DNA of 64,000 bases from Paraglaciecola sp. L3A3 (GTDB lineage: Bacteria; Pseudomonadota; Gammaproteobacteria; Enterobacterales; Alteromonadaceae): NCBI RefSeq assembly GCF_009796765.1, contig NZ_CP047023.1, positions 3,207,501 to 3,271,500 of the forward strand, given 5' to 3'. Within the stretch, counting starts at the first letter, position 1. Each line of letters opens with the position of its first letter. The notes under the pieces are model-generated. The model had not been told where the DNA came from. It searched no databases and saw only the letters and a program-made list of their open reading frames with translations. Position numbers and translations under genes: made by a program. Positions 33,914 to 51,626 of the stretch are shown here, piece after piece.

Positions 33914-33990
33914 TGGCGGAGTGGACGAGACTCGAACTCGCGACCCCCGGCGTGACAGGCCGGTATTCTAACCAACTGAACTACCACTCC
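33914..33990 (-). tRNA. tRNA-Asp (GTC), copy 3 of 3 in transcript order
   Basis: The 77-base cloverleaf begins GGAGTGG and ends CCACTCCG plus an encoded CCA. The anticodon loop CTGTCAC gives GTC. It is the last gene of a tandem set, identical in sequence to the two upstream copies. Confidence 0.97.
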
Positions 33991-34021
33991 CCGCATTTAA
34001 ATCACATTGTTGTTTTGATGT

Positions 34022-34098
34022 TGGCGGAGTGGACGAGACTCGAACTCGCGACCCCCGGCGTGACAGGCCGGTATTCTAACCAACTGAACTACCACTCC
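34022..34098 (-). tRNA. tRNA-Asp (GTC), copy 2 of 3
   Basis: Same 77-base sequence with GTC anticodon and encoded CCA. It is 31 bases from the downstream copy and 69 from the upstream copy; the spacers are unrelated. Confidence 0.97.
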
Positions 34099-34167
34099 AG
34101 CCGTAATCAAAACTTTATTTATTTAACACTTATAAATAAGCCTTAAATAAATCGATACTGTTAAAGT

Positions 34168-34244
34168 TGGCGGAGTGGACGAGACTCGAACTCGCGACCC
34201 CCGGCGTGACAGGCCGGTATTCTAACCAACTGAACTACCACTCC
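34168..34244 (-). tRNA. tRNA-Asp (GTC), copy 1 of 3, promoter-proximal
   Basis: Same 77-base sequence with GTC anticodon and encoded CCA. It lies about 60 bases downstream of a strong promoter that should drive all three copies. Confidence 0.97.
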
Positions 34245-40084: not shown

Positions 40085-41299
40085 TTAAAACTTAGCCCCC
40101 ACCCAAACCCATAGTTTATCGGTATCAACTTTACCGCTGTCACCTGAATAAGCCGCGTATTTAATCCCTGCTGAATAATATTTGTTATAGCTTTTAACGT
40201 AAGACAAATCTAATTCACTGCCTAAATCATCCACAGTGTCACTGGCCTCATCTGCAGAAAAATCGTGATACATCACAGTCCAGCCACCACCAAAAGCTTT
40301 ACCCGCTATCGTAACATTGACATCCACTAAACCTTCGTCAGGCGTACCTAAAAATATATCAGCCCAACCATTAAATTTATGTAAGGTGGCCAAAGGTGTA
40401 GCAAAACCAACCATACCTTCATCTGAGCCTAATGACTCGTAACCTAATTTAGCTGTGATACCAGTAAAAACAGCACCAATAGACAAGTTTATATAATCAG
40501 TACTGTAATCTGTACTCGCCGTTTCATTACTTTGTGAAGCATATTCAGCAGCGTATAAAATTTTAGTTTCACCGGCAGCTGTGCTGCCAACAAAACTGAC
40601 ACCAAAGGTATCTAAACTATTTTCAGTGCCGTTATCCATTTCGAGCAAATAACTATATGCAGTTAATTTACCCACAGAGGTGTTATAAGAAGCATTAAGT
40701 AGATGATCTTTAGCATCTAAATCCGCAGCTTCAGCAAAAATACGGTTACGCTGATCAATATAAGCATAATTCAAAGTGAGATCTTTACTAGGAGCATAAG
40801 CAACACTCAAACCATCAAAGGTTTGTCTATCTTGACGCCATCCCACATGGCCGATAAAACGATGGCCATCCATAGTCATTACTTGGCGACCTAATTTGGC
40901 GGTGATCCCTTCTGCTGAATATTGAATAAAACCTTGATCAAGCTCTGTATGTTCAGGATCCGCAATCACAGAATAAATACCTGAGTTATATCCAGTAGGT
41001 CCAACGGTATAATCACCTTGCCCCATGACAATGCGAGTATCTTCCATTTCAACAGTAGCTGAAAAACCGTTTACACTACCCGTTTTGTAGGCCAAAAGAG
41101 TACGTAATGTTAATGCGCTGGCATCTTTTGCGCTATTTTCTTGTTCGACCGACTCATAACGTAGCAGCATATTGACACTAGCCTTACCAGATGTCAGAGC
41201 TTCAGTCACTGATTCTGCCATAACTGATTGGCTTGTAGCACTTGCTAACATAGCGGTTGTTAATGCTAGGGTTAATTTAGTTTTATTAAGTGTTTTCAT
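40085..41299 (-). CDS. Outer-membrane porin linked to nitrate uptake (alginate-export-like barrel)
   Basis: The 404-residue protein has a signal peptide ending VMA (residue 28) and a beta-barrel rich in aromatic and glycine residues, ending LWVWVGAKF with C-terminal Phe. Motifs such as GFIQYSAEGITAKLGRQVM and HRFIGHVGWRQDRQTFDGLS resemble alginate-export-type or OprD-like porins. It directly follows the nitrate ABC transporter ATPase gene (47 bases), so it is likely the outer-membrane entry for nitrate. The substrate is inferred from position. Confidence 0.75.
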   Translation of the reverse strand: MKTLNKTKLTLALTTAMLASATSQSVMAESVTEALTSGKASVNMLLRYESVEQENSAKDASALTLRTLLAYKTGSVNGFSATVEMEDTRIVMGQGDYTVGPTGYNSGIYSVIADPEHTELDQGFIQYSAEGITAKLGRQVMTMDGHRFIGHVGWRQDRQTFDGLSVAYAPSKDLTLNYAYIDQRNRIFAEAADLDAKDHLLNASYNTSVGKLTAYSYLLEMDNGTENSLDTFGVSFVGSTAAGETKILYAAEYASQSNETASTDYSTDYINLSIGAVFTGITAKLGYESLGSDEGMVGFATPLATLHKFNGWADIFLGTPDEGLVDVNVTIAGKAFGGGWTVMYHDFSADEASDTVDDLGSELDLSYVKSYNKYYSAGIKYAAYSGDSGKVDTDKLWVWVGAKF

Positions 41300-41346: not shown

Positions 41347-42192
41347 CTAAGCCACGTTGGCCGACTTAGCTTTCACTTTCTTAGCTTTATGTTCACTGAC
41401 TGATTCCACTTTTCGTTGTTTCTCATATAAAAATTTGAGAACTTCACTGCGATAGTGGTTATATTTAGGATCATCAGCCAAGGCTATGCGGTTTCTTGGG
41501 CGGGCTAAATCAATAGGTAAAATTTCGCCTATTGTCGCCTCTGGGCCATTAGTCATCATGACGATGCGGTCTGATAACAACACAGCTTCGTCTACATCGT
41601 GGGTAATCATGATCACCGTATTTCCTAACTCAGCATGGATCTCCATCACAGAGTCTTGTAAATGAGCACGGGTTAAAGCGTCAAGGGCGCCAAATGGTTC
41701 ATCCATTAGTAACACCTTAGGTTCCATAGCTAATGCTCTGGCGATCCCTACTCTTTGTTTCATACCACCGGATATTTCAGCGGGTAACTTATCCGCAGCA
41801 TGAGTCATATGAACCAATTCAAGATTATGTTCCACCCACTCTTTCATCTCTTGTTTAGAGCGGCCTTTTTGCGTTTGTTTAACCGCTAGCTCTACGTTTT
41901 TATAGGCACTTAACCAAGGTAATAATGAATGATTTTGAAACACCACTGCACGCTCTGGGCCTGGTTCACTCACTTCTTTACCATCTAAAATCACCCCTCC
42001 ATGAGTCGCCTGATATAAACCTGCCACTATATTTAATACTGTGGATTTACCACAACCAGAGTGCCCAATCAGTGATATAAATTCACCTTTAGCAATCTTC
42101 AGGTTTACATCCTGTAACGCAGTGAAAGGCCCTTTAGGTGTAGGAAAATCAATGCCTACTTGCGTCAGTTCTAAATGATGTGTCGCACTCAT
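41347..42192 (-). CDS. nrtC: Nitrate ABC transporter ATPase (NrtD/NrtC-type)
   Basis: The 281-residue ATPase shows Walker A GHSGCGKST, signature ISGGMKQRVGIARAL, Walker B VLLMDEPFGALD and the switch histidine MITHD. It lacks the extra substrate-binding domain of cyanobacterial NrtC. The GGAG site before its ATG and its place directly after the permease gene fit a binding protein-permease-ATPase operon. Close relatives carry nitrate, bicarbonate or sulfonates; nitrate is indicated by the NrtA-type binding protein and the NasT-type leader. Confidence 0.9.
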   Translation of the reverse strand: MSATHHLELTQVGIDFPTPKGPFTALQDVNLKIAKGEFISLIGHSGCGKSTVLNIVAGLYQATHGGVILDGKEVSEPGPERAVVFQNHSLLPWLSAYKNVELAVKQTQKGRSKQEMKEWVEHNLELVHMTHAADKLPAEISGGMKQRVGIARALAMEPKVLLMDEPFGALDALTRAHLQDSVMEIHAELGNTVIMITHDVDEAVLLSDRIVMMTNGPEATIGEILPIDLARPRNRIALADDPKYNHYRSEVLKFLYEKQRKVESVSEHKAKKVKAKSANVA

Positions 42193-42238: not shown

Positions 42239-43228
42239 CTATCTTAATACTGCATTTTTGTCCCAACTGACTTTCTTTTGCAGTGACAACATCAATCTAT
42301 CTAGTACAAATCCGATAACTCCAATGGTCAGTACCGCCACCATAATCCGAGCTAAAGATTCTGAACTACCATTTTGGAATTCATCCCAGACAAACTTTCC
42401 TAAACCAGGATTTTGCGCCAACATTTCTGCGGCAATTAGCACCATCCAGCCAATCCCCAAGGACAAGCGTAAACCGGTGAAGATGGCAGGAATTGACGAA
42501 GGAATAACAATTTTTAAAACGTGATCTAAAGCGTTTAAGCGCAAGACTTTGCTGACATTCAGTAAATCTTTATCTATGGCAGAAACACCAACAGCAGTAT
42601 TAATTAAAGTTGGCCATAAACAACAAAGTGATACGGTTACAGCTGATGTGACAAATGATTTTGAAAACATAGGATCAGTGCTCACATACACAGCACTTAC
42701 CACCATAGTCACCAGCGGTAACCATGCTAATGGAGAGACAGGTTTAAATAATTGGATCAATGGGTTAATGGCTGAATAAGCTTGTTTACTCAAGCCGCAA
42801 ATAATGCCAATAGGTATGGCTAATAAAGAGGCCACAATAAATCCAACCATTACGGTATAAAGGCTGGTCCAAATCTGTTGGAAAAAAGTAGGAGCACCTG
42901 TGAACGCTCTGGTTTTTGCCACATAGCTAGGATTTTGCGCCACACGGGCCGCATTACGCTCTTCTTGACGTGCATAAAACTTGTCTGCTTTGTCCATTTG
43001 AGCAGCATGTTCATCAATCAAACCTATGGTTTGTTCCCATACGGCGGCGGGTCCAGGGAATTTTCCTAACGAAGTATCTATGTTTTTGGCCATTACACTC
43101 CATAGGCCTAAAAACAACACAATACCAATAAGTGGCAACGCTAAATTACCCAGAACTTTTCCTATATTCGGTAAATTAGCATCTTTAACTTGATGCAATA
43201 TTGTCAGTGCCGCGACTTGTTTAGTCAT
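42239..43228 (-). CDS. nrtB: Nitrate ABC transporter permease (NrtB)
   Basis: I chose the ATG at 43228 (MTKQVAALTI), which has TGGAG nine bases upstream, rather than an ATG 33 bases earlier. The product has about 329 residues. An N-terminal helix is followed by a charged periplasmic stretch (KADKFYARQEERNAARVA) and a binding-protein-dependent permease domain of five or so helices with the ATPase-contact region near LNALDHVLKIVIPSSIPAIF. It lies between the binding-protein gene and the ATPase gene. Confidence 0.9.
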   Translation of the reverse strand: MTKQVAALTILHQVKDANLPNIGKVLGNLALPLIGIVLFLGLWSVMAKNIDTSLGKFPGPAAVWEQTIGLIDEHAAQMDKADKFYARQEERNAARVAQNPSYVAKTRAFTGAPTFFQQIWTSLYTVMVGFIVASLLAIPIGIICGLSKQAYSAINPLIQLFKPVSPLAWLPLVTMVVSAVYVSTDPMFSKSFVTSAVTVSLCCLWPTLINTAVGVSAIDKDLLNVSKVLRLNALDHVLKIVIPSSIPAIFTGLRLSLGIGWMVLIAAEMLAQNPGLGKFVWDEFQNGSSESLARIMVAVLTIGVIGFVLDRLMLSLQKKVSWDKNAVLR

Positions 43229-43319
43229 TTTAATTACTCCAGAGCAAGGGGTCTTATACATTTATGTATAAGCCCCACTTATATCTCAGTTAAAGTTGTC
43301 GTAGTTAAGGTGCGAGTAG

Positions 43320-44723
43320 TTAGAGCTTGCTATCGCTTTTAAGACCGATCGCAAATTTATCTAGGTAAGCGTTTGGCGCAGTACCGTCGTACACTATGTT
43401 GTCAATAAAATGAGTTTGCGGTGATTTAAAGCCAGTCTCAGAAGCAAACTGAGGGAAGTCTTTTGCATTTGCCTTGCCTTCTTTAATCAAGGCTTTAGCT
43501 GCTTGAGCATATATATCAGGTCGATATACTTGTTTGGCAATGTCTTTGTACCAAGAGTCAGATTTAGGCTCAGAAATTTGCCCCCATCTGCGCATTTGAG
43601 TCAAATACCAAATAGCATCACTGTAGAAAGGATAAGTCGCGTTATAACGAAAGAATACGTTGAAATCAGGTACATCTCGTTTATCACCTTTTTCATATTC
43701 AAAGGTACCAGTCATACTATTAGCAATCACTTCGTAATCAGCTCCAACGTATTGGCTTTTAGAGAGAATTTTCACAGCTTCTGGGCGGTTAGCATTGTTG
43801 TTTTCATCTAACCACATGGCCGCTCTGATCATTGCTTTGACCACTCGAATATGAGTATTTGGATACTTATCAGCCCAACCTTTGCTCACGCCAAATACTT
43901 TTTCTGGGTTGTTCTTCCAAATTTCGTAATCAGTCACTACAGGTACACCAATACCTTTAAATACAGCTTGTTGGTTCCATGGTTCACCTACGCAATATCC
44001 ATAAATAGTACCGGCTTCCATAGTGGCAGGCATTTGTGGTGGAGGCGTCACAGATAGCAAGGCATCTGCGCTAATTTGGCCACTGGTATCACCCGTTTGC
44101 GGAGAATAATAACCAGGGTGGATACCACCTGCAGCTAGCCAATAACGTAATTCATAGTTATGGGTAGACACTGGGAAAACCATACCCATTTTGAATGGTT
44201 TACCTTTACTCTTAAAATCATCTACCACTGGTTTTAAAGCATCAGCCTTAATGGGATGAACTGGCTTGCCGTCAACATGAGGCACATGTTTTTTCATTTG
44301 TTGCCAAATATCATTAGAAACGGTAATTGCATTACCATTCAGATCCATACTAAAGGCGGTAATAATATCAGCCTTAGTGCCATACCCTATGGTTGCACCA
44401 AGAGGTTGGCCTGCTAACATATGAGCCCCATCTAACTGGCCATCAATCACTCGATCTAATAGAACTTTCCAGTTAGCTTGTGCTTCTAAAGTGACATACA
44501 AGCCTTCGTCTTCGAAATATCCTTTTTCATACGCTATGGCCAAAGGCGCCATATCGGTTAATTTGATAAAACCAAATTTTAGTTCTTCTTTTTCAGCCCA
44601 GCCTAACTCTTCAGCAGACACATGAGCGGCCATAAATGAGCCGCTTAATACTGTTGAAACCACACCTATACGGAGTGATTTAACAGCAAGTTTTAATGAT
44701 TTTAATAATTGTTTGTTAGCCAT
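43320..44723 (-). CDS. nrtA: Nitrate ABC transporter substrate-binding protein (NrtA)
   Basis: The open frame runs further upstream, but the ATG at 44723 with GGAG seven bases before it is the likely start. The extra upstream codons would cover the leader terminator. About 467 residues remain: a signal sequence ([16 protein letters not shown] to AAHVSA) and a CmpA/NrtA-type binding domain beginning [20 protein letters not shown]. Conserved segments [13 protein letters not shown] and [17 protein letters not shown] follow. It binds nitrate in the periplasm for NrtBC. Expression should depend on read-through of the leader terminator. Confidence 0.92.
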
Positions 44724-44743
44724 TTTAACTCCGAATTTTTTCC

Positions 44744-44788
44744 AAAAAAAAACCCACAAATATTTATCAAAAGATAAATATTTGTGGG
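44744..44788 (-). terminator. Leader terminator (attenuator) upstream of nrtA
   Basis: A 15-base perfect stem (cccacaaatatttat / ataaatatttgtggg) with a 6-base loop is followed on the minus strand by nine T. It ends about 20 bases before the nrtA start and so must be bypassed for nrtA to be made. Almost the same hairpin precedes narK at 49053-49097. Confidence 0.92.
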
Positions 44789-44906
44789 CTACATTGCCTA
44801 ACCGGAATAAACACAACACTGTGGAATTACGGATAATATGTTAAGCACTTGAACGAAATCGTTCTGTAAAAAGCACCTATATTAAAATAGATACACAACA
44901 CTCGAG
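44787..44906 (-). promoter_or_regulatory. NasT-type (ANTAR) antiterminator leader of nrtABC
   Basis: Read on the minus strand, the leader begins with GAGTGTTGTGTATCT (44889-44903), then TTTTTACAG, a stem GAACG-ATTT-CGTTC (44851-44864) and a small hairpin GGC-AATGTA-GCC (44787-44798). That hexaloop has A at position 1 and G at position 4, as ANTAR targets do. Its last two paired bases are also the base of the terminator stem, so forming one would disfavour the other. All parts recur upstream of narK. A classical first hexaloop hairpin could not be assigned. Confidence 0.75.
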
Positions 44907-44915
44907 CAAACATAT

Positions 44916-44931
44916 TGCATCTACAATGCCA
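44916..44931 (-). promoter_or_regulatory. Candidate sigma-54 promoter of nrtABC
   Basis: TGGCATTGTAGATGCA has the invariant GG and GC exactly ten bases apart, as -24/-12 promoters require. It lies about a dozen bases before the conserved 5' end of the leader. A matching site stands at the same place before narK. Confidence 0.65.
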
Positions 44932-45143
44932 ACTTTAAAAATAACAATAATTTCAAAGAGTTAAACAAAATAACAACTATTACTAAAAATAACTTAAAAA
45001 CCAAACTTGTGCAAAGACGCACTACCACAGTGCTAGTTTCAGAATAACCTGTTGCGTTTCAACATTTTTTACATTGAAGTTTTGAAAATTTAATTAACAG
45101 TACACTGGTCTTTAGAGTTCAGTTATTTACATCAAATCATTGA

Positions 45144-45685
45144 GAGTCTCAGCTATCTAAAAATGATAAGTTAAAGGAACAAATACACTTTTTTCAAGAG
45201 AATGGTATGAAGTTTCAGAAACAGGATTTACATCTTCATTTTGATGAAACAAATAACCAATTAGTTTTCCGAACAGTGGAGCACAAATTAGCAGACAAAA
45301 TAAATACAATAAATTCAGAGGCATAGCTATTGACCTAGCAAATTTACCAGATGTCGATGCTAATAAGCTGAACAAATGGTAAGAATTTTTTGAACAACAG
45401 CATGAATTTAACCAAGATTTGAGGGCCAAACTAGAGCAAGACGTTAAAAATCGCAATCCCGAAGCCGAATTCTCACTACATCACATATATTACGGACTTG
45501 CACGAGATGAACGTTCTATGTAGTTACTTGAAACATCAGAAGCATTATTAGTTCGTGCAGCAGCTAGGGGCATCATTGAAGTCCATAACAAATTAAATAC
45601 AGACTGCCCAATATTGAAGAAAGTGGCAATAAGAATAATTAAACGCGCTAATCAACGCCTGCTCGAAGAAGCTGAGACTTCTTAA
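45144..45685 (+). pseudogene. Decayed gene between nrtA and the kinase/phosphatase gene
   Basis: On the plus strand the text reads as ordinary protein in pieces. First comes DKLKEQIHFFQENGMKFQKQ up to a stop at 45324. Then, in another frame, GIAIDLANLPDVDANKLNKW, stop, and EFFEQQHEFNQDLRAKLEQD, later GLARDERSM, stop, and LLETSEALLVRAAARGIIEV to a final stop at 45683. At least one frameshift and two in-frame stops break it, and no start codon is evident. It points against the flanking nitrate genes. The parent family was not recognised. A minus-strand frame over the first part is only its shadow. Confidence 0.6.
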
Positions 45686-45698
45686 TCCCCTTATAATA

Positions 45699-47414
45699 TT
45701 ACGTCAGTTGAATCACTAAGATAATAATCAGCACAAACTGGATCACACACAGCCCCTGATACACCAAGATAGGGTTTCGTTTGATTAAAGGTTGTTTCTG
45801 TAAGGCCCCTAACATCACCTGATTGGGTTTGTCTAAATCCATAAGCAGTTCAGAAAACGCCTCATACCTATACTTAGGATTGGGCTGTAGAGCTTTGCGT
45901 AAAGTTAAATCGACCCACAATGGTAAATCAGGTCTTAGCAACCGAATACTTTGATACTGCCATTCGTCATATGAATTAGGGATATAATCCTGATATTTAA
46001 AGTCTTTAAATGGAAGCTGGCCCGCTAACATTTCATACACCACTACGGCCACAGAAAATAAGTCACTCTGATGATCACTTTTATGTGTTAACAAATATTC
46101 TGGAGCAATATAATGCACTGACCCCACAGCTACATCTTCATCAGGCAATGAGTTCGTTTCGGCTAAGGCATTGACCAATACAGTGCCAAAATCAATTAAC
46201 TTTACTTCACCATTATGGCTAATCATTACGTTTTCAGGTTTGACATCTCTGTGCACCATATCTTTACGTTGTAATATTCGTAAAGCTGCCACCAATTGGC
46301 TAATGATCTTGCGCACTTGTTCAAGACTAGGTTGAGGATTGTCTACCATCCATTGTCTTAGCGTTTGACCTTCTATGTATTCACATAAGTGATAGATAAA
46401 CTTAGCATTGTCAGGGCGTTTATACACAGCCATCACATTATGATGTTTAATGTGCTGACCTATCCACTCTTCACGTAAAAAACCACTCAGATAAACGGGA
46501 TCATCAGCAAAATATTGGGAAGGAATTTTTAAACCATATACCTTATCATCTTCTTCATTAATAACTTTGTACAAGCTACTTCGAGTACCATTAAACAAGG
46601 TTTGTACCACTCGATAACCTTCTAGCTTCATACCAACTTCTAAAGCCGGAGGCATAGCCAAACGGCTAATTTGTCGAAAGTGTTCGTCTAAACTGGCTGT
46701 AGGTAATTCAACAACATAAACCAATAAACAAGTTACGTTATCGTCACTGCCCGCATCAAGTGCTGCTTGTACAATATTATGTGCTCGCTGCTCTAACCCG
46801 TAATCAGAGTCATGAATTAGCGCCAATAATTTTTTGTTCGTTAGAAACTCATGTACTCCATCCGAAGTGAACAGATAAATATCACCTCTTGTAAGATCGA
46901 CTGTGCTGTAATCTACGTCTAGATGAGCGTCTATTCCTACTGCACGTGTTAAGACATTTTTGCCGCCTTGTGGGAAAACATGATCCGTTGTCAGTTGTTC
47001 TAATTCATTACCTTGCACACGATAAATTCGACTATCGCCTGCATGAACAATAAACCCTGAAGTCGATTTAAATAACATGCCACTAAAAGTAGTGACCAAT
47101 TGACTATGACCGCCATTTTCATAGTCATGTTGACCGTGGCACCAACGATTAAGCCCTTGTAAGACTTGGCCGACAGCTCTTTTGACTGTCCAAGTAGGTG
47201 GGGTTTGATAATAATCTTGAATAAAATTACTGACGCAAGTATTGGCAGCTTCTTTGGCTCGTGAACAAACACTTACGCCATCAGCAATAGTGGCGACAGC
47301 CCCTTTGCTTTCCAGATCATGATCTTTGGGTAAATAAGCGGCGAAGGCATCTTGATTCTCAGCCTTCACTCCTTGACTGGAAAAACCGCCGAATTCTAAC
47401 TTTAGTTTTTCCAA
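45699..47414 (-). CDS. PP2C phosphatase / Ser-Thr protein kinase fusion with C-terminal membrane anchor
   Basis: The 571-residue protein joins two opposing enzymes. Residues 1-235 form a PP2C phosphatase with its metal aspartates in ATIADGVS, HAGDSRIYR, FTSDGVHEF and GSDDNVT. Residues 265-535 form a Hanks-type kinase with Lys296, HRDVKPEN (388-395), DFG (408-410) and APE. The glycine loop is degenerate (FNGTRSS). A single hydrophobic helix (about 548-571) ends it. The start is a TTG, 49 bases after the NarK-type transporter gene, so it should share that attenuated transcript. A kinase gene is also found beside nasA in Pseudomonas; the target is unknown. Confidence 0.88.
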   Translation of the reverse strand: MEKLKLEFGGFSSQGVKAENQDAFAAYLPKDHDLESKGAVATIADGVSVCSRAKEAANTCVSNFIQDYYQTPPTWTVKRAVGQVLQGLNRWCHGQHDYENGGHSQLVTTFSGMLFKSTSGFIVHAGDSRIYRVQGNELEQLTTDHVFPQGGKNVLTRAVGIDAHLDVDYSTVDLTRGDIYLFTSDGVHEFLTNKKLLALIHDSDYGLEQRAHNIVQAALDAGSDDNVTCLLVYVVELPTASLDEHFRQISRLAMPPALEVGMKLEGYRVVQTLFNGTRSSLYKVINEEDDKVYGLKIPSQYFADDPVYLSGFLREEWIGQHIKHHNVMAVYKRPDNAKFIYHLCEYIEGQTLRQWMVDNPQPSLEQVRKIISQLVAALRILQRKDMVHRDVKPENVMISHNGEVKLIDFGTVLVNALAETNSLPDEDVAVGSVHYIAPEYLLTHKSDHQSDLFSVAVVVYEMLAGQLPFKDFKYQDYIPNSYDEWQYQSIRLLRPDLPLWVDLTLRKALQPNPKYRYEAFSELLMDLDKPNQVMLGALQKQPLIKRNPILVYQGLCVIQFVLIIILVIQLT

Positions 47415-47463
47415 TTCAAATAACTCATAAAGTAAAAGTAAAATTAACTAACCTGAACTCCGG

Positions 47464-48930
47464 TTAAGTTACCTTGATCAATTCAACACTACCATCTTCA
47501 CGCACTTCAGTCATAGTTCCAGACGGCTCTTTCATAAACAATAAAGCAATAAAGCCAATAATCGCTGTGCCAGCTATCACCAAGAAAAAGGTTGAGGTAT
47601 CGACTAGCGAATAAACCGTAAGATAAACCACAGCCCCTACGTTACCATAAGCCCCTGTCATACCTGCAATTTGTCCAGTTAATCTACGTTTAATTAATGG
47701 TACTGCTGCAAACACCGCGCCCTCTCCTGATTGTACGAAGAACGAACATGCCATAACAGCAACAACCGCTAACCAAATAGGCCAAGTGGCATCAATTAAA
47801 CTCAAACAAAAATAGCCGAGTGCCAAACCTGCGGTTAAAATTAACAAGGTTTTTCTTCGACCAAATTTGTCAGATAAAAGCCCTCCACCAGGTCGAGACA
47901 TTAGGTTCATAAAAGCATACATACCCGCCAACAAACCTGCCGTAGCCATACTTAACTCAAAGGTTTCAGCAAAGAATGCAGGCAGCATGGATATAACGGC
48001 CAACTCAGAACCAAAAGTCGCAAAATACAAAATATTTAACACTGCGACTTGTTTGAATGAATAACGGTGGACTTCAGCTACTGGCGTAACAAAAATCTCT
48101 TTATTAACTTTATAAGTTGCAAAACAGTCATAAACATATAAAGCCGCTAAGCCAAGATAAATAGCTAATACAATATTTTCACTTAAAAGTGACACACCTT
48201 CGGGAGACAACTTCCAATTTAATAGTGCTAAGGCTAAATACATAGGGGTTTTCATTAACAGTAATAAATAGAAATCGCCGACACTGGTGACTTCCATGCC
48301 ACCTAAATTTTTAGGACGAAAATAAGTGGAACCTTTAGGTGTATCTGTGGTGTTCTTATAATAAATCACACTAAACAATAAACTCATTAAACCGGTTATA
48401 CCCACGGCATAACGCCAACCGTCATCGCCGCCAAATAAAATCGCTAAGGTAGGTAAGGTAAAAGCCGCTGCGGCAGAACCAAAGTTACCCCATCCGCCAT
48501 ATACACCTTCGGCCGTACCTAATTCTTTAGGTGGAAACCATTCACTGACCATTCTGATACCCACAACAAAACCGGCACCGATACAACCTAATGCAAATCG
48601 AGCAATCAATAATTGGGTAAAACTGTCAGCTAAGGCAAATGCAAAACAAGGAATAGAACAAATGCCCAATAAATATGAATAAACTAATCGAGGGCCAAAC
48701 TTGTCAGTTAGGGCACCAATAATGACCCTGGCAGGTATAGTTAACGCGACATTTATAATCAGCAACGTTTTCCATTCGCTAAGGGTTAAACCCACACCAT
48801 CAATAATAGCCCCTTTCAAAGGAGCCATATTAAACCACACCATAAAGGTGATAAAAAAGGCCATCCAGGAAAGGTGCAGCGTTTTCATTTTGCCAGTGAA
48901 AGAGAGTAAATTAAATTTTTCAACACTCAT
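47464..48930 (-). CDS. nasA: Nitrate/nitrite MFS transporter (NarK/NasA family)
   Basis: The 488-residue protein has twelve transmembrane helices with nitrate-nitrite porter motifs: ARVIIGALTDKFGPRLVYS in the first half (nitrate-binding Arg), the signature GGWGNFGSAAAAFTLP, and in the second half RPGGGLLSDKFGRRKTL with GAYGNVGAVVYL. It moves nitrate in and perhaps nitrite out. A long leader with an attenuator precedes it, and the kinase/phosphatase gene follows 49 bases later. Either narK or nasA naming is possible; the NasS/NasT context favours assimilation. Confidence 0.9.
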   Translation of the reverse strand: MSVEKFNLLSFTGKMKTLHLSWMAFFITFMVWFNMAPLKGAIIDGVGLTLSEWKTLLIINVALTIPARVIIGALTDKFGPRLVYSYLLGICSIPCFAFALADSFTQLLIARFALGCIGAGFVVGIRMVSEWFPPKELGTAEGVYGGWGNFGSAAAAFTLPTLAILFGGDDGWRYAVGITGLMSLLFSVIYYKNTTDTPKGSTYFRPKNLGGMEVTSVGDFYLLLLMKTPMYLALALLNWKLSPEGVSLLSENIVLAIYLGLAALYVYDCFATYKVNKEIFVTPVAEVHRYSFKQVAVLNILYFATFGSELAVISMLPAFFAETFELSMATAGLLAGMYAFMNLMSRPGGGLLSDKFGRRKTLLILTAGLALGYFCLSLIDATWPIWLAVVAVMACSFFVQSGEGAVFAAVPLIKRRLTGQIAGMTGAYGNVGAVVYLTVYSLVDTSTFFLVIAGTAIIGFIALLFMKEPSGTMTEVREDGSVELIKVT

Positions 48931-49052
48931 TAGATTTAACCTTTGTTAGTACGATTATGTTCAACCTTGGCACAAACATTTATGCGCAGATTGACAAGTC
49001 AGCTTGAAAAACTTTAGTGATTAGTTATCAACCAATTCAAACTTAATATTAC

Positions 49053-49097
49053 AAAAAAAAACCCACAAACATTTACCAAATAGTAAATGTTTGTGGG
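49053..49097 (-). terminator. Leader terminator (attenuator) upstream of the NarK/NasA gene
   Basis: A 15-base perfect stem (cccacaaacatttac / gtaaatgtttgtggg) with a 6-base loop is followed on the minus strand by nine T. It lies about 125 bases before the start codon. Differences from the nrtA copy keep the pairing. Confidence 0.92.
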
Positions 49098-49218
49098 CTA
49101 CGTTGCCTATTAGCAATCAACATACTTAAACGTTAATCACTTTTTATTTTAAGCATAATGAACAAAATTGTTCTGTAAAAAGAGCACCTAATCAAAACGA
49201 AAGGTACACAACACTCAA
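49096..49218 (-). promoter_or_regulatory. NasT-type (ANTAR) antiterminator leader of the NarK/NasA unit
   Basis: On the minus strand the leader has GAGTGTTGTGTACCT (49202-49216), TTTTTACAG, the stem GAACA-ATTT-TGTTC (49160-49173) and the hairpin GGC-AACGTA-GCC (49096-49107), whose hexaloop again has A1 and G4. Compared with the nrtA leader, G-C in the middle stem has become A-U, so pairing is kept. The hexaloop hairpin overlaps the terminator stem by two bases. Confidence 0.75.
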
Positions 49219-49227
49219 AAGTCATAA

Positions 49228-49243
49228 AGCACAATCAAGGCCA
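49228..49243 (-). promoter_or_regulatory. Candidate sigma-54 promoter of the NarK/NasA unit
   Basis: TGGCCTTGATTGTGCT keeps the GG-N10-GC spacing of -24/-12 promoters and stands at the same distance from the leader's conserved 5' end as the nrtA promoter candidate. Confidence 0.6.
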
Positions 49244-49453
49244 AGTTTTTTTATTCAACAAAGTCAACAACTTAGATTAATATATAAATAGTGTATTGAG
49301 TGTTAAAACCCAGACATGTGCAGACTTGCACTATTAAAGGGCTTAAATGAAAACAAATTAAAGTATTGAAGAGCTGTTTAATATTCACATATTTGACTAA
49401 CATTTATGCGATTAGTATTTGTTCGTTTTTTTCATTCACAATAGAGGTTAGTA

Positions 49454-49907: not shown

Positions 49908-50993
49908 TTAATTTTTAGCAGTAAGTAACACCCTCATTTGTTCATAGATATCTGGCCTAAATACCGTTTTAACGATATCATCTGGTACTTCAATATTATG
50001 CAATTGCCCCGCATTAAGCATTTTTGATAACAACCACTCACCTCTCACATGTTCTGGTATATTGATTAAAATATCATCTGTTCGATAAAATTGATTATAA
50101 CTAGGCACAGCCCTAGGTGGACTAGATATATCGGTTAAACAACTGCCTATTAATGAAGGGGCGATCACATCTACAGGTGCATCTAAATATTGTTGCTGGC
50201 TTAATAATCGAGCAATTTCAAAACGATTAGGCGTGTCTTCTAACCAAATACACGCTTCTTTTAATGCGCAAAGTAACGCTAAAACTGTGTTGGGTTTTTC
50301 ATCATAGAAAGCTTGTAAAATACCCAACACTTTTTCTGGCGAGTCCTGCCAAATATCATAAGAGGTTAAAGCAGTAAAACCGATTCCTGCTCTTACAGCT
50401 TGGGCATTCCAAGGGCCACCAACACAAAAACCATCGATATCATCACTGGCCAAATGCCCCACCATATTGACTGGTGGCACCACAATAATATCAACTTCAT
50501 CAGGGGTTATTTGGGCAGAAGATAACCAATCTCTAAGTTGATAAAAGTGGCAGCTATAAGGGAATACAGTGGCAAATCTTAACTTAGGCCTGTTTTGTAC
50601 TTTGCGTTTTTTAATAATACTACGCAACAAATAACCAGCTAAGGGTAAGGTTATTTGGTTGATATTATTTTCAGTTAAAATTTCATTATGCAGTTGTTGG
50701 GAAAGTGTAATGCCATTGCCATTTAAACTAAGTACTAACGGGGTGATAACTGCAGTTTTGGGACAGCCAACACCCAAAGAACTGGCAAGGGGCATAGGCG
50801 CTAACATTTGAGCTGCATCTAACACTCCTGTATGTAGTTTATCTCGTAATGTCGCCCATGAATTTTGTTTTTGTAACTTAACATCTAAGCCCCATTTTTC
50901 GAAAAATCCCATTTCTTTTGCTGCCACTAATGGCGCGGAATCAGTTAAAGGTATAAAACCTAAAGTAAACTCTGTTTGTTCTAGTTTAATCAT
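49908..50993 (-). CDS. nasS: NasS-type cytoplasmic nitrate sensor
   Basis: The 361-residue protein belongs to the NrtA/CmpA binding-protein family but has no signal peptide, starting directly at MIKLEQTEFTLGFIPLTDSA. It shares segments such as IDGFCVGGPWNAQAVRAG with the periplasmic NrtA encoded in the same region. In the NasS/NasT system NasS holds NasT inactive and releases it when nitrate or nitrite binds. The gene follows nasT by 15 bases on the same strand, the usual pairing. Confidence 0.92.
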   Translation of the reverse strand: MIKLEQTEFTLGFIPLTDSAPLVAAKEMGFFEKWGLDVKLQKQNSWATLRDKLHTGVLDAAQMLAPMPLASSLGVGCPKTAVITPLVLSLNGNGITLSQQLHNEILTENNINQITLPLAGYLLRSIIKKRKVQNRPKLRFATVFPYSCHFYQLRDWLSSAQITPDEVDIIVVPPVNMVGHLASDDIDGFCVGGPWNAQAVRAGIGFTALTSYDIWQDSPEKVLGILQAFYDEKPNTVLALLCALKEACIWLEDTPNRFEIARLLSQQQYLDAPVDVIAPSLIGSCLTDISSPPRAVPSYNQFYRTDDILINIPEHVRGEWLLSKMLNAGQLHNIEVPDDIVKTVFRPDIYEQMRVLLTAKN

Positions 50994-51008: not shown

Positions 51009-51626
51009 TTAAAATGTATTTAATAAAGAAATAAGTGTCTTAGCAACATCTTCTAACTTTTGCCCAGTATCCATAGCGGTTTTGCGCATAGTTTTATAGG
51101 CGGCGTCTTCATCTAAGTTCTTTTTCTTCATTAATAACCGTTTCGCTTTCTCCACTAAATCACGAGAAGCTAACGCTTGTTTGGTCTCAGTTAATTCATT
51201 TTTAAGTTTTTGAAACGCTTTAAAACGAGCAACAGCTGCATCTAAGATAGGTTTTACTCTTTTGGGCTCTAAATCGCCTACTACATAAGCACTGACACCA
51301 GACTCGATTGACTGAGTGATAGTATCTGTACCTTCCTCTCCAGAAAACATCACCACGGGTTTAGGTGCATATTGTGAAATAGCAGTAAGACTCTCCAGAA
51401 TATCTCGGCTGGGTGACTCAATATCAATCACTATGATGTCGGGTTTAATCAGATCCACATGTTTTAATAAATGTGACGTAGGACTGGCCAAATGACTGAC
51501 AATATAACGAGAGTTATCTAATACGTCAGTCAACGAAGCGACACGTTGTTTATTGTCGTCTATTAATAAAATGCGTAATTTTGTAGATGCTGTTTGTTGC
51601 TTGCTAGGTGAATCGTCGTATTGCAA
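51009..51626 (-). CDS. nasT: NasT-type ANTAR antiterminator
   Basis: The 205-residue protein has a receiver-like domain (about 16-130; acidic pair in LLIDDNKQR and Asp68 in IIVIDIE). A C-terminal ANTAR RNA-binding domain follows (about 140-200; LVEKAKRLLMKKKNLDEDAA and LEDVAKTLISLL). NasT binds leader RNA and prevents termination ahead of nitrate assimilation genes. Two leaders with suitable hairpins lie in this window, before nrtA and before the NarK/NasA gene. Confidence 0.93.
   Translation of the reverse strand: MQYDDSPSKQQTASTKLRILLIDDNKQRVASLTDVLDNSRYIVSHLASPTSHLLKHVDLIKPDIIVIDIESPSRDILESLTAISQYAPKPVVMFSGEEGTDTITQSIESGVSAYVVGDLEPKRVKPILDAAVARFKAFQKLKNELTETKQALASRDLVEKAKRLLMKKKNLDEDAAYKTMRKTAMDTGQKLEDVAKTLISLLNTF

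Follow-up and report, generated by a model that had tools for sequence, protein, structure and literature searches.

Nitrate transport leaders of Paraglaciecola sp. L3A3 as probable ANTAR-type transcription attenuators behind sigma-54 promoters

The closest described relatives of the leader RNAs considered here are those of the eut genes of Enterococcus faecalis, read by EutV. In the published account, two hairpins (P1 and P2) lie upstream of an intrinsic terminator, P2 overlaps it, 5-12 nucleotides (nt) serve as linker, and both hexaloops, with A at position 1 and G at position 4 (A1/G4), matter by genetics (PMC3369931). In the same work, Ramesh et al. (2012) place ANTAR matches before nitrate/nitrite transporters and nitrite reductase in diverse bacteria. 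For Paracoccus denitrificans, it is reported that nitrate or nitrite splits NasS-NasT and that NasT binds the nasA leader (PMC3795266); the hairpins of that leader are thought to end transcription, and a chromosomal hairpin-I mutant is reported alongside a nasT mutant for growth on nitrate (PMC3795266, PMC5424462). Described here are two leaders, upstream of nrtA and nasA of Paraglaciecola sp. L3A3, within a window of 64,000 nt (contig NZ_CP047023.1, positions 3,207,501 to 3,271,500). Each is best explained, with a high degree of probability, as an ANTAR-type transcription attenuator that lies behind a sigma-54 promoter and would be released by nitrate via NasS and NasT.

The elements that the original prediction had named in the two leaders were all located on the minus strand, and NasT and NasS are indeed encoded about 2.4 kb away. 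They are given below in window coordinates, together with the P1 hairpins that had been missed.

43320..44723, minus strand: nrtA, substrate-binding protein of a nitrate ABC transporter (NMT1_2), an open reading frame with Pfam PF13379 at 2.4e-98 and its ATG at 44723
44744..44752, minus strand: nrtA leader U run of nine U, terminator
44753..44788, minus strand: nrtA leader terminator hairpin, from folding
44787..44798, minus strand: nrtA leader P2 hexaloop hairpin, GGC-AAUGUA-GCC
44802..44832, minus strand: nrtA leader P1 hairpin, a weak stem with apical CAC-AGUGUU-GUG (A1, G4) at 44812-44823
44851..44864, minus strand: nrtA leader P0b hairpin, GAACG-AUUU-CGUUC
44864..44872, minus strand: nrtA leader TTTTTACAG
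44873..44894, minus strand: nrtA leader P0a, 5' hairpin GUAUCUAU...AUAGGUGC, overlapping the 15-mer
44889..44903, minus strand: nrtA leader 15-mer GAGTGTTGTGTATCT, common to both leaders, near the predicted 5' end of the transcript
44914..44933, minus strand: nrtA sigma-54 -24/-12 site, TTGGCA-N7-TGC
47464..48930, minus strand: nasA, a nasA/narK-type nitrate/nitrite transporter of the major facilitator superfamily (TIGR00886, 7.3e-97; ATG at 48930)
49053..49061, minus strand: nasA leader U run of nine U, terminator
49062..49097, minus strand: nasA leader terminator hairpin
49096..49107, minus strand: nasA leader P2 hexaloop hairpin, GGC-AACGUA-GCC
49112..49141, minus strand: nasA leader P1 hairpin, 12 base pairs (bp), hexaloop UUAAGU (neither A1 nor G4)
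49160..49173, minus strand: nasA leader P0b hairpin, GAACA-AUUU-UGUUC
49173..49181, minus strand: nasA leader counterpart of TTTTTACAG
49184..49207, minus strand: nasA leader P0a, 5' hairpin GUACCU...AGGUGC
49202..49216, minus strand: nasA leader 15-mer, common to both leaders
49226..49245, minus strand: nasA sigma-54 -24/-12 site, TTGGCC-N7-TGC
49908..50993, minus strand: nasS, NMT1_2 protein, the nitrate-binding partner of NasT (PF13379, 5.5e-76; named from position and homology)
51009..51626, minus strand: nasT, REC-ANTAR antiterminator (PF03861, 9.6e-19; PF00072, 7e-11; aligned to EutV and NasR)

The P2 hexaloops, AAUGUA before nrtA and AACGUA before nasA, both carry A1 and G4, and in both leaders P2 and the terminator stem have two bases in common. 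Between the leaders, one pair of the GAACR stem (P0b) is changed on both sides and still paired; the same holds for two pairs of the terminator stem, and one more terminator pair is changed on one side. The stretch GTAYCT likewise pairs with AGGTGC to form the additional hairpin P0a, in which the change between the leaders is one-sided. The distance from the U run to the start codon is 20 nt for nrtA and about 120 nt for nasA. Since the terminator is predicted by folding to be more stable than the P2 state, by 8.9 kcal/mol for nrtA and 5.5 kcal/mol for nasA, the leaders would be off by default, and P2 would have to be held. Probably, then, both leaders stop transcription unless released by NasT.

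The view that these leaders depart from a two-hairpin model, put forward in the original prediction, was not supported by folding of the 40-48 nt upstream of P2. A P1 hairpin of 30-31 nt is present in both leaders, 3-4 nt upstream of P2, although only the P1 loop of nrtA is A1/G4. In the nrtA leader P1 consists of CCGUAAUUC-CACAGUGUUGUG-UUUAUUCCGG, ends 3 nt before P2, and displays the hexaloop AGUGUU on a 3-bp core; the 13 nt between this apical core and P2 are taken up by pairing in a basal helix, which stops 3-4 nt short of P2. The nasA hairpin, with its 12-bp stem, ends 4 nt before P2 (-10.9 kcal/mol, z -4.2). Of 98 nrtA leaders, 89 have a P1 helix whose end is 0-5 nt away from P2, and in 80 of those the helix reaches 8 bp or more, a count made without a shuffle control. 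Compared with shuffles, the minimum free energy of P1 falls within the lowest 5% for 41 of 52 nrtA leaders and for 12 of 27 nasA leaders.

The covariance check in relatives that had been suggested turned out in favor of the structure: both the P1 stem and the terminator stem covary in 39 leaders. In a sequence-only alignment of these, 63.8% of cells pair at the P1 positions, and sliding the partner lowers this to 37.0-43.4%. The covariation score reaches 0.381, as against at most 0.174 for the slid controls, and changes on both sides occur at all 12 pairs; as folds of two alignment rows supplied the structure, P1 is somewhat favored. RNAalifold, applied to the same 39 rows, returned the terminator alone. 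One row (L220) was cut ∼15 nt too far upstream and has no U run, and another (L222) is a porin leader. The P2 calls of nasA rows L144, L153, and L155 are doubtful, and the comparison of P1 folds uses only the two leaders of the window. By these comparisons P1 is a conserved structure, and the two-hairpin layout exists without help from the 15-mer or the GAACR stem.

The family-wide survey covered 100 regions upstream of nrtA, namely 60 + 39 from 246 family genomes and that of the window (G076, with contig-edge fragments, was left out). P2 was detected by folding as a 3-bp stem with a loop of the form R..G.. that overlaps the terminator; a first, strict detector, which had overlooked 24 of the 99 leaders from genomes with an ANTAR match, was replaced. 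P2 and terminator are found in 98 of the 100 regions; 1000 dinucleotide shuffles and 100 flanks taken from farther upstream gave none. These counts demonstrate presence rather than loop identity, as a purine at position 1 and G4 were required. The two exceptions are G206, in which an ANTAR gene is present, and G047, the sole genome of the 100 without an ANTAR match. A sigma-54 site (GG-N10-GC, score of at least 7) accompanies 90 of the 98 P2-positive leaders and 8 of 490 shuffles. Also observed was the motif GUGUCC in the terminator region of nine of the 98 nrtA leaders, against 1.5 expected, from several genera (L064, L079, L081, L082, L085, L088, L090, L096, and L097); it occurs in nasA leaders of congeners as well and is absent from the leaders of this genome.

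A covariance model of P1, P2, and terminator, termed R1, revealed a third leader in the same genome, outside the window, at C1:3314160-3314250 (L238 4361-4451, minus strand; E 1.4e-11). The match ends 24 nt upstream of nirB, which is followed by a molybdopterin oxidoreductase gene (nitrate reductase by context). This leader has the P1 hexaloop AAUAGC and the P2 loop AAAGAA (A1, G4) and lacks both the 15-mer and the GAACR stem. A fourth match, at C1:1401580 (E 1.7e-4), was rejected; it follows a permease gene (phosphate type by our own reading), and no GGC-RNNGNN-GCC was seen by eye. On 75 loci outside its alignment R1 scored 63 at E≤1e-3 and 73 at E≤1; some of these loci share a genome with model rows or are closely related to them, and the best match at L070 is a model row's own leader. 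Of the 246 genomes, 92 hold both an R1 match and an ANTAR match, 7 R1 only, 25 ANTAR only, and 122 neither (Fisher 6.9e-35, a value that includes the model genomes and ignores kinship, genomes of one family not being independent). Three R1 matches each occur in nine of the 12 Paraglaciecola genomes drawn, and in eight of the 11 with R1 matches a REC-type protein is the only ANTAR match. One genome without an ANTAR match, G094, keeps a nasS and a porin gene, each behind a leader-like R1 match (L292 1435-1527 and 3098-3188). The detector finds no P2 in either, and by eye each has one broken P2 pair, AGC-AAUGAA-GCC and GGC-AAUGUC-ACC. Such broken stems are a hint of what is expected after loss of the reader, from one genome, with G016 (see below) pointing in the opposite direction.

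In layout these leaders resemble those of the eut system, with two hairpins upstream of an intrinsic terminator, overlap by P2, and the A1/G4 hexaloop in P2 and in P1 of nrtA, and the genes served are nitrogen genes, as are ANTAR targets given in PMC3369931 (nitrate/nitrite transporters and nitrite reductase among them). They differ in that the linker is taken into the basal helix of a long P1, the P1 loop rule is broken before nasA and nirB, and a sigma-54 site is present. As in P. denitrificans (PMC3795266, PMC5424462), nasT-nasS adjoin nitrate transport genes, whereas here there are two linked leaders and a distant nirB leader. The nasF leader of Klebsiella oxytoca, with its NasR, likewise combines a nitrate-controlled ANTAR protein, an A1/G4 hexaloop, and terminator control (PMC7496416, PMC3369931). 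NasR, however, senses nitrate itself through a NIT domain (PMC7496416), and here it is NasT that adjoins the leaders. This type of switch is known, and Table S2 of PMC3369931 may list some of these leaders. Among the literature matches listed, no paper dealt with these leaders in Alteromonadales, subscription journals being mostly outside the scope of that search. The long P1 abutting P2, and a P1 loop that varies by gene and by reader, would be the new features.

That variation was followed across the family. On stems of at least 5 bp in the P1 region, A1G4 hexaloops number 36 of 90, against 1.1 expected, and G1G4 five, where 0.5 would be expected; none of the other kinds tested clearly exceeds expectation, their counts being close to it or lower. 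G4 is present in the P1 loop of nrtA in 52 of 77 genomes with ANTAR proteins of REC length only (the NasT type) and in 2 of 17 with NIT length only (Fisher 5e-5), unframed loops being counted as misses and 8 of the 17 coming from one genus. Within one genus the corresponding figures are 4/4 and 0/3 (p 0.029). The P1 helix itself (at least 8 bp, ending within 5 nt of P2) is found in 65/77 and 11/17, respectively (p 0.087). ANTAR type was assigned throughout by open-frame length, with Pfam confirmation for the two proteins of this genome only. Within Paraglaciecola, G4 occurs in the best P1 hexaloop of 9/13 leaders of nrtA or porin, 2/10 of nasA, and 1/9 of nirB (9/13 versus 3/19, p 0.0035), and A1 in 2/13, 2/10, and 8/9, respectively; several rows are from near-identical species, such that the true weight is smaller. 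The sole nirB call with G4 (L287) has the letters AAUAGCG, which fold as the hexaloop AAUAGC in two other nirB leaders. For 27 of the 32 Paraglaciecola leaders, the distance between the best hexaloop and P2 is 14-16 nt. Judged from these alignments and folds, the P1 stem and register are kept, and G4 in the loop is found mainly before nrtA and is mostly lost before nasA and nirB and in NIT-only genomes. Within Paraglaciecola the loop tends toward G4 without A1 before nrtA, and toward A1 without G4 before nirB. The NIT protein alone would not explain the loops lacking G4, because in eight of the 11 Paraglaciecola genomes the REC-type protein is the only ANTAR match.

From this pattern a broader scheme can be drawn, offered tentatively and with some doubt, in which P2 is the one true loop of a family attenuator, the P1 loop is tuned by gene, uptake before reductase, and readership passed from REC to NIT proteins with decay of the P1 loop. 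In this scheme G4 would have been kept in P1 before nrtA and replaced before nasA and nirB, such that the same NasT would free uptake first.

The presumed reader, NasT, aligns with Rv1626 (1s8n), EutV (6wsh), and, over the ANTAR part, NasR (4akk). It keeps the residues by which EutV contacts G4 (R142, E160, and Y164), in addition to M172 and K147, by our own mapping. A change of EutV M172 alone abolished binding, as did the triple change N173A/R175A/R177A (PMC8934654). The receiver lysine is missing from NasT (VGD versus VKP in EutV), which would fit control by NasS over control by phosphorylation.

Several observations weigh against the attenuator reading, in addition to the limits given above for the P2 detector and the Fisher value. 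NasT is not identical to EutV at K143, N173, R175, and R177, with D, G, and K at the last three; as these include the residues of the triple change, a simple transfer from EutV to NasT is weakened. The nrtA leader has a weak P1 (-5.5 kcal/mol; z -1.99 and p 0.053 against shuffles), A1 and G4 are both missing from the P1 loop of nasA, and the nirB loop is A1/A4. Seven genomes have an R1 match without an ANTAR match, and 25 have the reverse at 1e-4. One of the genomes without an ANTAR match, G016, contains a strong R1 match (E 1.2e-15) 5' of a moaA-like gene. In P. algarum and an uncultured Paraglaciecola (L124, L128), a sigma-54-like site and no P2/terminator is found 5' of nasA; the attenuator is apparently dispensable there, having been lost or never gained. 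Finally, a second ANTAR protein is encoded in the same genome. At the G016 locus itself (L291 ∼2571), a sigma-54-like site, P2, and terminator were read by us 5' of the moaA-like open reading frame (molybdenum cofactor).

In the proposed mechanism, the predicted start of transcription is ∼12 nt beyond the -12 GC, and RNA polymerase would by default come to a halt at the terminator. P1 would form first in the nascent RNA, its apical loop ending 16 nt before P2. The P2 hairpin (GGC-ANNGNN-GCC) would form next, with its 3' arm taking two bases of the terminator stem. For release by NasS, binding by NasT, antitermination, the direction of the response, and its dependence on nitrate, we infer the following course from published relatives. 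Nitrate or nitrite bound by NasS would set NasT free, and free NasT would hold P2 as the RNA emerges, and P1 where the loop fits, thereby blocking the terminator. The nrtABC genes, probably with the porin gene, and nasA would then be transcribed.

Of the alternatives, the one that fares best is that the second ANTAR protein, a NasR-like NIT-ANTAR protein of 443 residues, serves as reader for at least one of the leaders, by itself or together with NasT. Its gene is present in this genome, far from the nas genes (L240:1622-2953; C1 ∼1706121-1707452). In all 17 genomes of the nrtA set with NIT-length proteins only, P2 and terminator are retained and the P1 loops mostly lack G4, as do the nasA and nirB P1 loops of this genome. 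Congeners with REC-type proteins only, however, have the same leaders, and their P1 loops before nasA and nirB also mostly lack G4; moreover, it is nasT that adjoins the leaders. This reading is considered unlikely.

Pairing of UGCUUAA, located after the GAACR stem, with UUAGGCA, the stretch containing the 5' arm of P2, might instead provide an anti-P2 switch in this lineage. The helix appears in the minimum free energy fold of the nascent nrtA leader (44841-44847 with 44795-44801), and in 16 of 69 leaders, against 7.8 expected, the P2 arm can form an uninterrupted run of at least seven pairs with the 5' part. Yet this enrichment is weak, falling to 4 of 69 versus 3.1 at eight or more pairs, and the helix is not predicted for the nasA leader, all of which leaves such a switch with little probability.

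The original prediction was upheld with respect to the sigma-54 site and an ANTAR attenuator, most likely of NasT. Its further suggestion, that the 15-mer, TTTTTACAG, and the GAACR stem form an extended NasT recognition element needed besides the hexaloop, fared poorly. The 5' element is nearly identical in letters in the two leaders, and the GAACR stem keeps its pairing. The 22-mer TTTTTACAGAACRATTTYGTTC occurs twice in the genome (one contig, 5,308,776 bases, searched whole), with none other within three mismatches, and a BLAST alignment of the two leaders spans query bases 108-259 with 75% identity (E 1.2e-16); for both of these reasons the likeness is not due to chance. With up to three mismatches the 15-mer has seven matches in the window against 2.96 expected, the exact ones being the two leaders only. 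In other genera the 5' parts of leaders are structured (mean z -2.35; p≤0.05 in 60% of 60 segments), as are 4 of 13 Paraglaciecola segments at p≤0.05, and several Paraglaciecola nrtA leaders hold a hairpin of other sequence at the GAACR position.

The nirB leader of the same genome, however, lacks the 5' element, and in some leaders the GG of the sigma-54 site lies only 58 nt from P2, or ∼34 nt from P2 to the predicted start, which is just enough for P1 and leaves no room for the element. The P0a and P0b hairpins, too, are without a hexaloop having a purine at position 1 and G4. A 20-base GAACR block, searched with three mismatches, gives some match in at least 183 of 246 relatives and is uninformative; the per-genome counts, among the matches listed, resemble by eye those of a reversed control. 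Among relatives the 15-mer was seen in just two close species, and there in a diverged version: P. algarum (L063) and an uncultured Paraglaciecola (L220) carry it in their nrtA leaders. Across seven Paraglaciecola genomes, the 5' parts of the nrtA and nasA leaders resemble each other only here (local score 67 versus a shuffle maximum of 29); in the other six they are unrelated (14-19, within shuffles). Because the similarity is confined to this one of the seven genomes, the common 5' part, 15-mer and GAACR stem included, is best read as a lineage-specific extension copied from one leader onto the other, and a recognition role is very improbable. The hairpin at the GAACR position may be a real local structure outside the shared core, which the genus may keep for stability or spacing. 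Additional purine-1/G4 hexaloops 5' of P1 were considered as NasT sites and rejected: A1G4 loops on stems of at least 5 bp number 11 of 72 against 2.6 expected, but A1A4 loops are enriched as well (16 against 5.2), for which reason they are read as general structure.

That the hairpins are plain terminators, serving insulation or the ends of upstream transcripts without regulation, is hardly credible, for although they are strong intrinsic terminators with nine U, they sit between the sigma-54 site and the gene to be served, both P1 and P2 are conserved and track ANTAR genes, and G047, the only genome of 100 without an ANTAR match, has no P2/terminator 5' of nrtA.

The remaining features of the locus are as follows.

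40085..41299, minus strand: porin gene, probably the final gene of the nrt operon
41347..42192, minus strand: nrtC/D ATPase (TIGR01184, 1.8e-107)
42239..43261, minus strand: nrtB permease, 3' of nrtA (TIGR01183, 8.4e-48, under its cut-off)
45000..45022, minus strand: GTGC-N6-GCAC upstream of the nrtA promoter, resembling its nasA counterpart, read by eye
49309..49331, minus strand: GTGC-N6-GCAC upstream of the nasA promoter, resembling its nrtA counterpart, read by eye

Each GTGC-N6-GCAC is followed by a similar AWGTYTGG stretch and lies ∼65-90 nt upstream of the -24 box at both promoters. It is a possible enhancer site (NtrC-like) for nrtA and nasA. The nasAB genes of Azotobacter vinelandii are reportedly under sigma-54/NtrC and NasT, a two-step control by nitrogen limitation and nitrate, to which the present arrangement may be likened. 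A leader of the same type precedes the homologue of the window's porin gene in two Paraglaciecola relatives (L222 ∼1808; L288 ∼285), which suggests membership of the porin in the nitrate regulon. Among named relatives, those nearest to the NarK protein come from Paraglaciecola species. Between nasA and nrtA lies a gene for a PP2C phosphatase-kinase fusion (45699-47414), in the same position in several Paraglaciecola, and the stretch between it and nrtA (45200-45690), with no listed open reading frame of at least 100 residues, looks like a decayed gene. Three tRNA-Asp genes stand in tandem at 33914-34244. In an Rfam scan three tRNAs were the only matches over the whole window, no family for the leaders reached the gathering score, and the two weak matches within 44600-49400 are far under it.

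Whether an ANTAR protein uses one or two hexaloops is a point on which eut genetics and the EutV structure differ, the dimer in the EutV-RNA structure holding one hexaloop at a time (PMC8934654). With ∼100 leaders in which P2 and the P1 stem are kept and the P1 loop is varied by gene and by reader, the family would provide a test of one versus two loops by natural variation. The R1 model may be used to find leaders of nitrate assimilation in marine bacteria. At this locus, moreover, copying appears to account better than function for the close match between the 5' sequences of two leaders.

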